A DNA stretch of 5,715 nt from Nitrospinota bacterium. Its GTDB lineage: Bacteria; UBA8248; JACPRG01. Of the stretch, positions 1 through 5,448 are shown piece by piece. Every line of letters starts with the position of its first letter. Positions within the stretch are counted from its first letter, which is position 1. Under the pieces are notes generated by a model that did not search any database, was not told where the DNA came from, and worked only from the letters and a program-made list of their open reading frames with translations. Made by a program: the position numbers and the translations under genes. Where the stretch lies: NCBI GenBank assembly GCA_030740135.1, contig JASLXW010000276.1, positions 1-5,715 of the forward strand, read 5' to 3'.

Positions 1-473
1 TTGAGCCCTCGACGACGTGCCAGATCTTCTGGTGACAGATCGGATTCTGGCGTCCATCGCTCAATTCCGAGATCCAAGCGCACCCGATCGCGCGCTCGGC
101 GTTCAAGCGTCTCGAACTCCGAGCTGGAAGCCCTCTGCCGCTCCAGGGATGCAAGCGAGTCAAGATATACGGGATCGTTGTCCTTTAAGTCCGCAAGGGC
201 CGCCTGAAACTCTTCGGTGTCCTCGTCGTCTGGTTGCGTCTGCGGAACTGACAGAGGAAGAATTCCAAACTCGGTGCCATTAAGAAGACCGCCAAAAACT
301 TGATCGGGAAGCTCGTCAATAATGCGGAAATGTCTCGAAGAGGGTTCGCGATGGGAGAACGACAACAGAGGATTGCGCAGACCGAGATCGAGGAGCTTTT
401 TTCGAAAAGTCCCGATCTCGGTCCGAATCTGGGTTCGGAGCGCATTCTGGTTCGGAGGCTTAATGTCTGCCAA
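1..473 (-). CDS. DUF4011-family large helicase protein, N-terminal part only (runs off the left edge)
   Basis: Read on the minus strand, one frame is open from the TTG at 473-471 to the window edge, giving 157 residues and two leftover bases. Residues 24-38 read RKKLLDLGLRNPLLS, the hallmark start of the DUF4011 domain. A conserved-looking RIIDELPDQVFGGLL follows at about 50-64, then an acidic linker (80-100). The segment LERRARDRVRLDLGI (about 123-137) and the SPEDLARRRGL end (147-157) resemble the stretch that precedes the helicase core in this family. Family members are usually well over 1000 residues, with DUF4011, an SF1 helicase, and often a Vsr-like nuclease or DUF3320 region; some are catalogued as defence helicases. 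Only the N-terminus is visible, so ATPase motifs cannot be checked. TTG is chosen because no ATG or GTG lies between it and the in-frame stop at 551-549, and GGAGG sits 5 nt upstream. Identification is by recalled motif, not by a search. Confidence 0.8.
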   Translation of the reverse strand, partial: MADIKPPNQNALRTQIRTEIGTFRKKLLDLGLRNPLLSFSHREPSSRHFRIIDELPDQVFGGLLNGTEFGILPLSVPQTQPDDEDTEEFQAALADLKDNDPVYLDSLASLERQRASSSEFETLERRARDRVRLDLGIERWTPESDLSPEDLARRRGL

Positions 474-478
474 GATCC

Positions 479-483
479 CCTCC
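479..483 (-). promoter_or_regulatory. Ribosome binding site that decides the TTG start
   Basis: GGAGG on the minus strand, followed by two more G, ends 5 nt before TTG 473-471. It supports this uncommon start codon for the DUF4011 gene. Confidence 0.6.
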
Positions 484-535
484 AGGGGCCGACAGGCCGC
501 GTCACACTGGATGACCGAGATATTGGTTTTTTCGA

Positions 536-564
536 AGTGTACCTTTGATCAGAGCAAGATTCAA
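536..564 (-). promoter_or_regulatory. Candidate sigma70 promoter for the DUF4011 gene
   Basis: On the minus strand TTGAAT (564-559, 4/6 to the -35 consensus) is followed after 17 nt by TACACT (541-536, 4/6 to the -10). It would give a leader of roughly 55 nt before the TTG at 473. The match is moderate and placed by eye. Spacing and position are what make it credible. Confidence 0.35.
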
Positions 565-659
565 AGGGTAAAAGTGTTAGGGACTAGGGTCTTGTTTATT
601 ATCGTGGGTCTTTTAACGGTGCCTTCAGTTTTCAGGACAAACCTCAAAAACACCGATTT

Positions 660-681
660 CGGGGCGGAATCCCCGGTTTTT
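660..681 (+). terminator. Short terminator-like hairpin with T-run
   Basis: CGGGG (660-664), loop CGGAAT, CCCCG (671-675), then one G and TTTTT (677-681). A 5-bp GC stem followed by five T fits a weak intrinsic terminator on the plus strand. No plus-strand gene is seen upstream in this window, so its role is unclear and it may be chance. Confidence 0.22.
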
Positions 682-871
682 CAAGGGTAGGGGCCGATTT
701 TTTCTCCCTTACCCCGACCGCCTCAAGCGTGACTCGCCTGGGCCTGCCCATAAGTCCGGGCTTCCCTTGGTCCGGGAACCTGTTAAAATTTCAGTTGTCA
801 ATACAAAAAGACACAGACTATGCACACCCGATAGGGGCACGTCATGCGGGTTTCAGGAGCCCGAAATGGAG

Positions 872-900
872 TTGACAGGTCCGGTAGAGAGGGGTCTAAT
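872..900 (+). promoter_or_regulatory. Strong sigma70-type promoter upstream of the permease fragment
   Basis: A perfect TTGACA (872-877) is followed by exactly 17 nt and TCTAAT (895-900, 5/6 to TATAAT). Transcription would start near 907, about 60 nt before the permease ATG at 968. The promoter therefore appears to remain intact while the gene it serves is broken. Confidence 0.55.
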
Positions 901-967
901 CGGGCTAAACAGCAACGAGTGGCAGGTATGGGTCTGTTCGGATTTATAATGGGGAATTCCGGCCCAA

Positions 968-1333
968 ATGGCTGAAGACCTTGCGAGAGGATCTATACAA
1001 CCTGGAGGCCTGAGGGTCCGTCCGCTTTCGGTGGGGGACCTCCTACAACGCGGGGGGGTTGTCGTCGCACTGGCGCTGGTGCTGCTAGCCGCCGCGATCG
1101 TCTCTCCCGCTTTTTACCAACCCGCCAACATCTTCAACGTTCTGAGGCAGGGCTCCGCCCTGGGCATTGTCAGCATCGGCCAGGCCATCGTCATCCTGGG
1201 GGGCGGGTTTGACTTGTCGGTGGCGGCGGTCATGCAACTTGCCGTTATCACTTCGGCACAAATCGCCCGGGGGAGAGATTGTCGGCGAATCGCGAAAAAA
1301 TTCGTGCGTTATAACGTTTCAGGCTGGACCTAA
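968..1333 (+). pseudogene. ABC-transporter permease (RbsC/BPD_transp_2 type), truncated after about 102 residues
   Basis: The frame opens at ATG 968; an in-frame TAA at 947-949 excludes an earlier start. Only a weak GGGG lies about 13 nt upstream as a ribosome site. Residues 29-50 form a first membrane helix ending in SPAFY. Residues 52-60 (PANIFNVLR) are the loop typical of ribose/simple-sugar and nucleoside permeases. Residues 70-86 contain GQAIVILGGGFDLSV, the conserved GGIDLSVG-like signature. A third hydrophobic stretch follows to about 100. Family members have about 310-350 residues and eight or more helices, so two thirds is missing. From about residue 104 (near 1280) the frame continues into 17 charged, unrelated residues and stops at 1333. 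The intact protein would be the inner-membrane channel of an importer; this product cannot work. It faces hyuB tail to tail. Confidence 0.85.
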
Positions 1334-1359: not shown

Positions 1360-3096
1360 TCATTTTGACGCCAGCTTCTTCCGCCGGGCCTCGGTGGCCG
1401 GGATGTCCAAGGCGGTGGAGTCCCCCAGAAAAACCGCACCGTAATCCCGCTCCGCCGTCTCGCGGTAAACGCGCCCGCTCCGCACGTCCTCCTGCACCCA
1501 TTCAAGATTCCGTTCGAGGGGGTCGCCGTACCCGCCCCCGCCGGGGGAGTGCACCTCGATGGTGTCGCCCGGTTTCAGGCGCACCCGGGCGTCTTTCGTC
1601 ACGTGCTCGGGCCGGTGCTCCTTGCCGTCCAGGGTAAAGATGATTTCGCTGAGGCGCGCGGGCTTCCCCCCCAGGATGCCGAAGGGCGGAAACTTCCCCC
1701 GGTCGCCGATGACCGAGCAAACGCCCTCACCCCGCAGGAGCTCGAACTTGTACGAGGTGCCGAACCCGCCCCGGTGCCGGCCCGATCCCGCCGAGTCCTC
1801 GAAGAGCTCGAAGTGCTTCACGCGGAAGGGATAGCGCTGCTCGTAGAGCTCCGCCGGCGGGACCCGGGAGATTCCGATCGTCGACGCCCCGTTGGTCAGG
1901 CCCTCCGAGACCATCGAGCCGCCGTACCCGCCCCCCTGATAGATGTAAATCACGTAGTCCTTCCCGGTCTCCGGGTCATGCCCGCCCACGACGAGATCGT
2001 TGTTCGTGGAGAAGGGGGCCCCGAAGAGCTTGTCGGGAATGGCCTGGGCCAGGCACCCGAAGACCACATCCACCACCCGCTGGCCGACCTCGGCGGTGCA
2101 GGCCGCGCAGGGCTTGGGAAACTTCGAGTTGAGGAAGGTGGTGTCCGGGACGTCGAAGGTGAAGGGGACGAACAGCCCCGAGTTCACGGGCACGTCGGTG
2201 AAAACGTGCTTGATGGCCACGCAGAAGGCCGCGATGGTGTTGGACAGCACGCTCGAGGTCGGCCCCTTGCACGGCGGGCTGGACCGGCTGAAGTTCAGGT
2301 GCATGTCGGACCCTTTGACCGTCATGTCGCAGTGGATGGTCAAGGGCTCGTTCGTCACCCCGTCGCTGTCCATGTAATCCTCGAAGGTATAAACGCCGTC
2401 GGGGATGGCTTCGATGTGGGCCCGGATCATCTTTTCGGAATGGACCTTCATCTCGTCGATGCACGCCCGGACCGTCTCCAGACCGTACTTCTCAAGGATG
2501 CCGCGAAGGCGGACCTCGCCCACGTGAAGCGCGTTGACGGCCGCGGTGATGTCGCCCGTGCGCTCTTCCGGGACGCGGATATTGGCCAGGACCAGGTTCC
2601 AGATGTCCTCGTTCATCACCCCTTCGCGGAACAGCCGGACCGGCGGAAGGCGCAGGCCCTCCTGGAAGATCTCCGTCGCGTCGCTCACGAACCCCCCCGG
2701 AACCGAGCCGCCGATGTCGGGCCAGTGGCCGGTGTTCGCCAGCCACGCGAAAATCTTCCCCTCATAATAAAAGGGCTTCAGGAGGGAGACGTCCATCAGG
2801 TGCGTCCCGCCGGTGTAGGGGTCGTTCACCATGAAGATGTCGCCCGGCTTGAAATCATCGACCACCTTGAGGGTGGCCTGGACGGTGAACTGCATGGCCC
2901 CGACGAAGATGGGCAGGGCGTCGTCCCCCTGGGCGATGACCTCGCCCGTCACGCCGTCATAGATGCCGTTGGCCCGGTCGTGGCCCTCGGCGATAACGGG
3001 GGAGAAGGACGTCTTGATCATGGCGGTGTCCATCTCATCGGCGGTGAACTCCAAGCTCGCCTTGACGACGGCCAGTGTAACGGGATCCACGGCCAT
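1360..3096 (-). CDS. hyuB: Hydantoinase B / oxoprolinase-family protein (HyuB)
   Basis: 578 residues, within the usual 510-590 of stand-alone HyuB proteins. It is the metal-site partner of HyuA in N-methylhydantoinase, 5-oxoprolinase and acetone/acetophenone carboxylase-type enzymes in the cytoplasm. Family features seen in order: DPVTLAVVKASLEF at the N-terminus; SPVIAEGHDRANGIYD (32-47); MVNDPYTGGTHLMD (89-102); NTGHWPDIGG (121-130); GSGRHRGGFG (437-446); LKPGDTIEVHSPGGGGYGDP (507-526), the standard glycine-rich end. His99, Asp102 and His124 have the same spacing as the Mn ligands I recall for acetone carboxylase (His150, Asp153, His175), so the metal site looks intact. The start is ATG 3096-3094, because GGAGG lies 10 nt upstream and the family begins at DPVT; the in-frame ATG at 3129 would overlap hyuA and lacks support. 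It lies 2 bp after hyuA, so the two are co-transcribed and probably translationally coupled. The substrate cannot be told from sequence. Confidence 0.96.
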   Translation of the reverse strand: MAVDPVTLAVVKASLEFTADEMDTAMIKTSFSPVIAEGHDRANGIYDGVTGEVIAQGDDALPIFVGAMQFTVQATLKVVDDFKPGDIFMVNDPYTGGTHLMDVSLLKPFYYEGKIFAWLANTGHWPDIGGSVPGGFVSDATEIFQEGLRLPPVRLFREGVMNEDIWNLVLANIRVPEERTGDITAAVNALHVGEVRLRGILEKYGLETVRACIDEMKVHSEKMIRAHIEAIPDGVYTFEDYMDSDGVTNEPLTIHCDMTVKGSDMHLNFSRSSPPCKGPTSSVLSNTIAAFCVAIKHVFTDVPVNSGLFVPFTFDVPDTTFLNSKFPKPCAACTAEVGQRVVDVVFGCLAQAIPDKLFGAPFSTNNDLVVGGHDPETGKDYVIYIYQGGGYGGSMVSEGLTNGASTIGISRVPPAELYEQRYPFRVKHFELFEDSAGSGRHRGGFGTSYKFELLRGEGVCSVIGDRGKFPPFGILGGKPARLSEIIFTLDGKEHRPEHVTKDARVRLKPGDTIEVHSPGGGGYGDPLERNLEWVQEDVRSGRVYRETAERDYGAVFLGDSTALDIPATEARRKKLASK

Positions 3097-3098
3097 GA

Positions 3099-5102
3099 TT
3101 AATCGACCTCCAGAAGGATGTTGCCCCACTCATCCACGGACCAGGCCATCCCGGGCTCCACGAACACCGTGGCGTCCGCCTGCTCGATGACGGCCGGGCC
3201 GTCCCCGCGGAAACCGACGGGCAGGCGACGCCGCTCGTACGTGGGACTTTCATACCACTGCCGGCCGAAGTAGACCCGCCGCTCCCCTTTAAAGGGATCG
3301 CCCCCGACCCTGTCCAGCAGGGAGCTGAAGTCCACCTTGGGCCGGACGCCGATGACCGCCGTGCGAAGGTTCACCACCATCACGGCCGTAGCCACGAGGA
3401 CGTCGCCGTACCGGCCCGTGTACGCCTTCAGGAAATTCGCGCGCATCTCCTCCGCCGCGGGCCGGCCGGACGCGAGCGGAACCCGGACGGTGTGGGTCTG
3501 GCCGGAGAACTGCATGTCGGCCTCGAACAGGTGGACGGCGCCTTCGACGTAGGTGCTCGCGCTCGCCAGCACCTCTTCGCCCCTTCGCACATGGTCCTCG
3601 AAGATACCGTGAATGTCCCCGATATCGATGTCGTCCAGGGCGACGTTCAGCGTTTGGACCCAGTCGTGGCGCATGTCGGCCAGGATGCACCCCATCGCGG
3701 AGGTCACGCCCGGCAGGTGCGGGATCAAGGTGTGCCGGATCCCCAGCTCCCGGGCCAGGGCCGCGGCGTGCAAGGGTCCCGCCCCCCCGAATCCGACCTG
3801 GGCGAACTCCCGGGGGTCGTGGCCCTTCTCGATGCTCACGACCCGCAGGGCGTTGGCCATCTTGACGTTGGCGACCTGGATGACGGCCTCCGCCGCCGCC
3901 TCGACCCTGAGGCCGAGGGGCGTCGCGACCTTCTCCTCTATCGCCCGCCGGGCGGATTCCAGGTCGAGGGTGAATCCCTCCTCCCGGGCGATGGAGTATT
4001 CGGGATTGATCCGGCCCAGGACGAGATTCGCGTCGGTGACCGTGGGCTCGCTCCCGCCCCGGCCGTAGCAGACGGGTCCGGGGACCGCCCCGGCGCTGTG
4101 GGGGCCGATCTCCAGCAACCCGCCGGAATCGACCCAGGCGATGGAGCCGCCGCCCGCGCCGATGGTGCGGATGTCGATCATCGAGATGCGCACCGGGATG
4201 CCGAACTCCAGGGCCCGGTCGGAGCCCACCTCGGGCCGGCCGCCGCGGATGAGGCAGGCGTCGAAGGAGGTGCCGCCCATGTCGCCCGAGATCACCTCGG
4301 CGTGACCCGCTTGGGAGGCGATGTACGCCGCCGCGATGGCTCCCGCCGCCGGACCCGACAGGACGGTGTTGACCGAGTAGCGCTCGGCCGCCTCCAGGCT
4401 CATCCCGCCCCCGTTGCTCTGGATCATCACGATGTCCCGGTCAAAGCCGTCCTCGCGGAGCTGCCCCCGAACCGAGCGCAGGTAGCGGGAGACCAGGGGA
4501 CGGACGTACGCGTTCACGACCGTCGTGCTCGTGCGCTCGAACTCCCGGAATTCGGGCAGGACCTCGGAGGTCAGCTCGATGTAATCGTTGGGCCAGAAGG
4601 AGACCAGGACCTCCTTGGCCTTCTGTTCGTTGGCCGGGTTGGCGTAGCAATGAAGGAAGCTGACGACGACGGCTTCGCAGCCCTCATCGAGCAGTCGCCT
4701 GCCGAGCCGCTCGATCTCTTGCGGATCGACCGGCGTAAGGATGTTGCCCTTCTCGTCGCTCCGCTCGTCCACCTCCAAGCGGAGATCCCTTGGAACGAGC
4801 GGTTTGAAATCGCCCTTCAGGCCGTAGTCGTGATGCCGGTCCCGGCGGCGGATCTCGAGGATGTCCCGAAAGCCCTTCGTGGTCAGGAGTCCGACTTTGG
4901 CGCCCTTGCGCTCGAGGACGGCGTTGGTCGCCACGGTGGAGCCGTGGACCACCATTCCGATGGCGTCGATCGGAATTCCGAGATTCGCCAGTCCGTGCAG
5001 GAGGCCGCGGGCCTGGTCGTCGGGCGTGGAGAAGACCTTGAGAACTTTGAGGTCCCCGGACCCGGGATCCAAACCCACCAGATCGGTGAACGTGCCCCCC
5101 AC
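3099..5102 (-). CDS. hyuA: Hydantoinase A / oxoprolinase-family ATPase-like subunit (HyuA), 5' end irregular
   Basis: 667 residues counted from GTG 5102; the family is about 680-700. It belongs to the ASKHA (actin/sugar kinase) fold and uses ATP to phosphorylate the substrate that HyuB then processes. Seen in order: GGTFTDLV (2-9), the end of phosphate motif 1; VVHGSTVATNAVLERKGA (51-68); TTKGFRDILEIRRRDR (74-89); LSGPAAGAIAAAY (248-260); SGDMGGTSFDACL (272-284), phosphate motif 2; RTIGAGGGSIAWVDSGG (312-328); GPVCYGRGGSEPTVTDANLV (342-361); FGGAGPLHA (438-446), the nucleotide-binding motif. All key motifs are intact. The start is the problem: the codons before GTG 5102 read TVIGID, completing the normal IGIDVGGTFTD motif, so real coding continues upstream. 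No ATG, GTG or TTG lies in this frame before the TGA at 5147-5145. GTG 5102 is given as the first conventional start and is probably not the true one; a one-base shift would link to a TTG at 5148. Its TAA is 2 bp from hyuB. Confidence 0.94.
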   Translation of the reverse strand: MGGTFTDLVGLDPGSGDLKVLKVFSTPDDQARGLLHGLANLGIPIDAIGMVVHGSTVATNAVLERKGAKVGLLTTKGFRDILEIRRRDRHHDYGLKGDFKPLVPRDLRLEVDERSDEKGNILTPVDPQEIERLGRRLLDEGCEAVVVSFLHCYANPANEQKAKEVLVSFWPNDYIELTSEVLPEFREFERTSTTVVNAYVRPLVSRYLRSVRGQLREDGFDRDIVMIQSNGGGMSLEAAERYSVNTVLSGPAAGAIAAAYIASQAGHAEVISGDMGGTSFDACLIRGGRPEVGSDRALEFGIPVRISMIDIRTIGAGGGSIAWVDSGGLLEIGPHSAGAVPGPVCYGRGGSEPTVTDANLVLGRINPEYSIAREEGFTLDLESARRAIEEKVATPLGLRVEAAAEAVIQVANVKMANALRVVSIEKGHDPREFAQVGFGGAGPLHAAALARELGIRHTLIPHLPGVTSAMGCILADMRHDWVQTLNVALDDIDIGDIHGIFEDHVRRGEEVLASASTYVEGAVHLFEADMQFSGQTHTVRVPLASGRPAAEEMRANFLKAYTGRYGDVLVATAVMVVNLRTAVIGVRPKVDFSSLLDRVGGDPFKGERRVYFGRQWYESPTYERRRLPVGFRGDGPAVIEQADATVFVEPGMAWSVDEWGNILLEVD
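3107..3111 (-). promoter_or_regulatory. hyuB ribosome binding site inside the hyuA 3' end
   Basis: GGAGG on the minus strand lies within the last codons of hyuA, 10 nt before ATG 3096-3094. It selects this start over the in-frame ATG at 3129 and supports coupled translation of the two subunits. Confidence 0.6.
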
Positions 5103-5140
5103 GTCGATCCCGATGACGGTTTCTTTAGAAATTGGATTGA

Positions 5141-5407
5141 TTATTCAAAAATCCCTCGGGGGACAAAAAACCGCGCGGAGCGATTCGGGCAGAGATTCTC
5201 AGGAGACCCCAAATCGCCTCTGGAACGGCAAAGACATTCCGTAAAACCTACTTTGAACGTATCCGATGTGTCAAGGAGGTGTATGGGTTCAAGACATATG
5301 AACGAAGGGGCCTCCGTTTTGAGTTTTCCCAGGGCCTGTCCGGGTCCCGAACGAACTGGACCCCGGCCTTCACCCGACGGCGATTCAACGGCACACAGAA
5401 ATTTTGA
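5141..5407 (+). pseudogene. Startless 88-codon open frame, possible C-terminal remnant of an unidentified protein
   Basis: One plus-strand frame is open from the codon after TGA 5138-5140 to TGA 5405-5407, with no ATG and no ribosome site. The later part is rich in aromatic and basic residues: KTFRKTYFERIRCVKEVYGF (codons 31-50), then TYERRGLRFEFSQG (52-65), then NWTPAFTRRRF (72-82). This looks more like a protein than chance translation and has the flavour of a transposase C-terminus, but I do not recognise a family. It begins where hyuA coding ends and stops on the first three bases of the 5405-5448 palindrome. Accidental openness is the main alternative. Confidence 0.3.
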
Positions 5408-5448
5408 CCTGCCCCCTGAAACCGGTCCAGTTTTAGGGGGGCAGGTCA
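5405..5448. repeat. 44-bp near-perfect palindrome resembling paired IS3-type ends
   Basis: TGACCTGCCCCC (5405-5416) is exactly inverted as GGGGGCAGGTCA (5437-5448). The pairing extends inward past one extra G (5436) through T-A, G-T and AAAC/GTTT, leaving a 7-nt loop at 5423-5429. Read from either end, the sequence begins TGACCTGCCCCC and continues to an A-rich core and a CTGGACC-like or CCGGTCC motif, the layout of IS3-family terminal inverted repeats as I recall them. No T-run follows on either strand, so it is not a classical terminator. No 3-4 bp target duplication is evident at the immediate edges. Confidence 0.7.

Follow-up and report, generated by a model that had tools for sequence, protein, structure and literature searches.

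We identify the start of a DUF4011-family gene at the left edge of a 5,715-nucleotide stretch of DNA from a Nitrospinota bacterium (contig JASLXW010000276.1; hereafter, "the window" means this whole stretch). The best explanation, to which we give a probability of roughly 0.7, is that this is the beginning of a giant single-chain DUF4011-helicase-nuclease gene, separated by a junction from a hydantoinase operon to which it is unrelated. What the window shows directly is limited to the start site and the opening half of DUF4011. Judging from its relatives, the gene most likely continues downstream of the fragment as in P0226, a protein of 2068 residues. The DUF4011 helicase-nuclease family is widespread in bacteria and has frequently been connected with antiviral defence.

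The minus-strand frame encodes 157 amino acids and runs without a stop up to the left edge, where the contig end cuts it off; a GGAGG that ends five bases 5' of the TTG start codon makes a good ribosome-binding site (Table 1). The window appears to span the complete contig, as 5715 bases is also the greatest length of any contig on which this protein occurs. A first-pass annotation made from the sequence alone had proposed an edge-truncated DUF4011 gene on this strand, with a signature motif that reads RKKLLDLGLRNPLLS, and had suggested searching the 157-residue translation against Pfam. That search returned PF13195 (DUF4011) at 36.3 bits, above the curated cut-off of 22.2 bits (E 7.1e-9), with residues 26-129 aligned to positions 1-90 of the 158-position profile; the remainder of the domain falls outside the contig. 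DUF4011 is the sole Pfam family listed for the fragment at E ≤ 1. The "several further family-like segments" of the annotation (DELPD, PDDED..F, DPVYL, RRARDRVR.DLG and LARRRGL) were confirmed by alignment with P0003, P0004 and full-length proteins. The openness of the frame is weaker evidence that the gene is real: when bases 1-1000 were dinucleotide-shuffled 2000 times, the minus frame was open from the left edge over at least the same length in 10 cases (182 codons, a count from the edge that runs on past the start codon). Because the shuffles reach this length, the real support comes from the match to the family and from how the fragment aligns with its relatives. The fragment is a real gene start, cut at the edge, and it belongs to an already known, widespread bacterial family.

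Table 1. Features of the window from left to right, with strand and basis of assignment.
Feature	Position	Strand	Basis
5' part of DUF4011 gene, 157 codons, TTG start	3..473	-	ORF and PF13195 match
Ribosome-binding site region, GGAGG	474..491	-	Sequence inspection
Intergenic, between divergent DUF4011 and permease frames, GC 0.516	474..967		
Sugar-ABC-transporter permease gene, 5' fragment	968..1264	+	Homology
Likely junction, end of permease homology to hydB stop codon	1265..1359		
hydB (hydantoinase B/oxoprolinase)	1360..3102	-	PF02538, E 2.2e-161
hydA (hydantoinase A)	3099..5102	-	Pfam; N-terminus compared

The close relatives of the fragment bear on whether the gene is intact. Four of 295 candidates of similar length passed, the window's own protein among them, and three other proteins annotated PF13195 are 79%, 56% (P0003) and 54% (P0004) identical to the fragment, with P0003 and P0004 both tracking the window sequence. 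A further possibility is that the window holds a broken remnant (a pseudogene) whose frame ends soon past the contig edge. The near-identical P0002 differs from the window at one position in the first 120 residues and then turns into unrelated sequence at residue 121, as after an insertion or rearrangement; it looks like a disrupted allele, so the locus may be decaying. P0003 (236 residues), in turn, keeps to the family consensus only up to about residue 209, and the permease gene adjoining the fragment in the window is truncated. Against this, the window gene has a good start site, and its sequence stays with the family through its last codon, past the point at which P0002 breaks. We regard a remnant as unlikely. 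As a side observation, P0002 and P0080, which share the source ENA, may lie on one contig, for which the equal size of 4578 bases is the sole evidence; if they do, the disrupted DUF4011 copy adjoins a different hydantoinase A (51% identical).

For the remainder of the gene we turned to full-length relatives. A profile search scored 7997 proteins and returned 7416 at E ≤ 0.001, and the counts that follow refer to the best 120 of these 7416. The fragment matched 115 of the 120 by BLASTP at E ≤ 0.001. P0226 was the closest, at 58% identity over 146 residues (window residues 12-157), and the second by BLASTP score was 38% identical. Since the search profile beyond the N-terminus was built on one cyanobacterial protein alone, closer full-length relatives may rank below 120.

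In the Pfam scan, P0226 carries DUF4011 (residues 37-280), the AAA_11 and AAA_12 halves of a split Upf1-like SF1 helicase, and an MTES_1575 (Vsr-like) nuclease (1625-1722), a layout that it has in common with the relatives at loci L001-L004, L008, L009 and L010. P0226 and four aligned relatives share the motifs GPPGTGKS, DEASQ, GD..QLPP, VQGDERD, RRLNV and ECDG..YH; among the best 120, Walker A occurs in 120, DEA[SG]Q in 117, GD..QLPP and RRLNV in 116 each, and ECDG..YH in 113. The first-pass annotation had suggested searching the full protein for SF1 helicase, Vsr and DUF3320 domains. The helicase and the nuclease are supported by way of relatives only, with PF18741 present in P0226 by direct scan and in 115 of the best 120 (counted from a precomputed Pfam column). 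DUF3320 is uncommon: it occurs in 4 of the best 120 and at L008, and the Pfam scan did not find it in P0226. The best PDB sequence matches were SMUBP-2, SEN1 and UPF1, in agreement with PMC10925250, which counts the helicase of Hhe within the Upf1 branch of SF1. A search with the predicted structure of DUF4011 gave no clear structural relative. At L007 (11668-17524), on a Sphingomonas plasmid, the DUF4011 helicase-nuclease is annotated as three consecutive genes, of which the first holds DUF4011 and the first helicase part and the next two match later stretches of PDC-S37 and Hhe.

By analogy with these proteins, the complete product would consist of DUF4011, two Upf1-like SF1 helicase halves around a long insertion, and then an MTES_1575 (Vsr-like PD-(D/E)xK) nuclease. 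The helicase core may load on invading nucleic acid and translocate along it, the attached nuclease would cut that nucleic acid without a methylase partner, and DUF4011 could serve as a recognition or regulatory domain ahead of the motor. As a motor and a cutting domain share one chain and no modification enzyme accompanies them, the predicted layout suggests a direct attack on foreign nucleic acid. Such an attack has been argued for giant proteins related to these, whose C-terminal winged helices probably provide the recognition (PMC3710099).

Several named families resemble that of the window gene. Hhe (NF042953; Hhe in PADLOC and "Gao Hhe" in papers) appears among listed anti-phage proteins or systems. 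Its model matches the N-terminal part of the fragment (E 2e-10, 38.7 bits for this short piece), and P0226 has the same layout over most of the model, yet scores 1190 bits against the 2000 bits required of a whole protein; the relatives at L002 and L003 do pass, at 2046 and 2240 bits. ProA (NF058533) matches the short fragment over model positions 348-467 at 28.7 bits, and P0226 scores 1064 bits against a whole-protein cut-off of 1500. About 347 positions precede the match in the ProA model, whereas 7 residues do so in the window. The N-terminal region of ProA is absent here: the match begins at fragment residue 8, equivalent to model position 348, and an in-frame stop lies upstream of the fragment, since the open stretch that begins at the edge ends after 182 codons. 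With P0226 below both cut-offs and the fragment short, we assign the window gene to neither Hhe nor ProA. The best PADLOC match of both the fragment (32.4 bits) and P0226 (1160.6 bits) is PDC-S37, a candidate family. The MTES_1575-type giant proteins, as described in PMC3710099, share the helicase and MTES_1575 nuclease core of the window gene's relatives and combine HEPN, transglutaminase, SF1 helicase, Vsr-like nuclease and winged helices; unlike them, P0226 had no HEPN or transglutaminase match in its Pfam scan. In type III-B CoCoNuT systems, a Vsr-like nuclease is directly fused to a UPF1-like helicase (PMC11090510).

A defence role is plausible for the branch of P0226 without being established for it, given that P0226 falls under both anti-phage cut-offs. 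The first-pass annotation had suggested a possible defence island to the left of the window; within the window no defence neighbour is seen, the seven other frames having no PADLOC match at E ≤ 0.01. At four of eight relatives' loci, among proteins picked by eye and without a background control, we found a PADLOC-matching neighbour: type I restriction and PDC-S11 at L003, an OLD-like protein at L004, PDC-S44 at L008, and AbiD with a UvrD-like helicase at L010. Two of these four are on plasmids and one adjoins conjugation genes. The scan covered ten hand-picked proteins at five loci, leaving out the neighbours in L001, L002 and L009, and two of the ten, both at L007, turned out to belong to the DUF4011 gene.

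A rival reading is a conserved housekeeping helicase, acting in DNA repair or RNA handling, in place of a defence gene. At L002, a Y-family DNA polymerase gene (impB/mucB/samB family) stands directly before the DUF4011 gene, and the shortfall of P0226 against the Hhe and ProA models points the same way. In P. aeruginosa, according to PMC10250203, a defence hotspot has a DUF4011 gene as its core flank on the right, and this gene is present in every isolate; a DUF4011 gene can thus border an island without belonging to its variable content, and this core position would suit a housekeeping function no less than defence. The location of some relatives on plasmids and beside restriction and abortive-infection genes and the anti-phage listing of Hhe speak against housekeeping, which we consider improbable, slightly more so than a remnant.

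To the right of the fragment, the intergenic region contains one weak promoter-like site (shuffle mean 0.5) and has no Rfam match. The permease fragment has no Pfam match, and its homology ends at about residue 99-104 of some 320 in most matches, although two of ten listed plasmid rows align it to residue 120. The segment that follows matched no DNA of the plasmid collection convincingly. Beyond it, Pfam identifies the hydantoinase A and B genes, in keeping with the hydantoinase locus that the annotation had placed beside the helicase gene; the closest relatives of hydA are 95% and 86% identical, and one at 81% is from a Nitrospinota bacterium. GC3 is 0.561 in the DUF4011 fragment, 0.697 in the permease piece and 0.894-0.898 in hydAB, where the lowest value among 935 stretches of 157 codons is 0.822. 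The break in the permease near 1265, together with the step in GC3 from 0.56 to 0.90, makes a junction or a chimeric assembly there likely, and the cut and the change in codon composition fit the "rearranged DNA" that had been suspected.

A chimeric contig would mean that assembly had joined DNA of two genomes near 1265-1359, one piece carrying DUF4011 and the permease and the other the hydantoinase genes. The codon composition, the end of permease homology at the junction and the shortness of the contig all speak for this. However, a deletion or a horizontal transfer would look alike, and GC falls again to the right of hydA, to 0.523, so that shifts occur at more than one point. We hold a chimera to be about as unlikely as a remnant, and continue to prefer an authentic helicase-nuclease gene start beside an unrelated operon.

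Two further observations concern the right-hand part of the window. The conserved IGIDVGG start of hydA reaches about position 5132, which lies upstream of the first GTG. Within 5103-5145, no ATG, GTG or TTG precedes the conserved SKETVIGIDVGG start, and a TGA stands six codons before its S; for these reasons, hydA either starts at a rare codon or has a displaced 5' end. The predicted proteins P0005, P0006 and P0009 all start ahead of the conserved motif. In the right intergenic region, an inverted repeat at 5405-5448 has 17-base arms, 88% complementary and 10 bases apart, and presumably resembles the ends of insertion sequences.

Through this analysis, a gene start that lies at a contig edge and is easily missed has been placed in a widespread family; the closest full-length relative, among the best 120 of 7416, lies below the cut-offs of two named anti-phage families. 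It is a doubtful but conceivable reading, proposed without a tree, that the window gene, P0002, P0003, P0004 and P0226 might form a branch outside Hhe and ProA that sits in the defence locus of an uncultured, possibly Nitrospinota-like bacterium and has been lost by insertion in sister strains, in which case it would represent an undescribed defence system in turnover. For now the finding changes little; an intact gene with defence genes around it on a longer contig would make this a further branch that merits testing.
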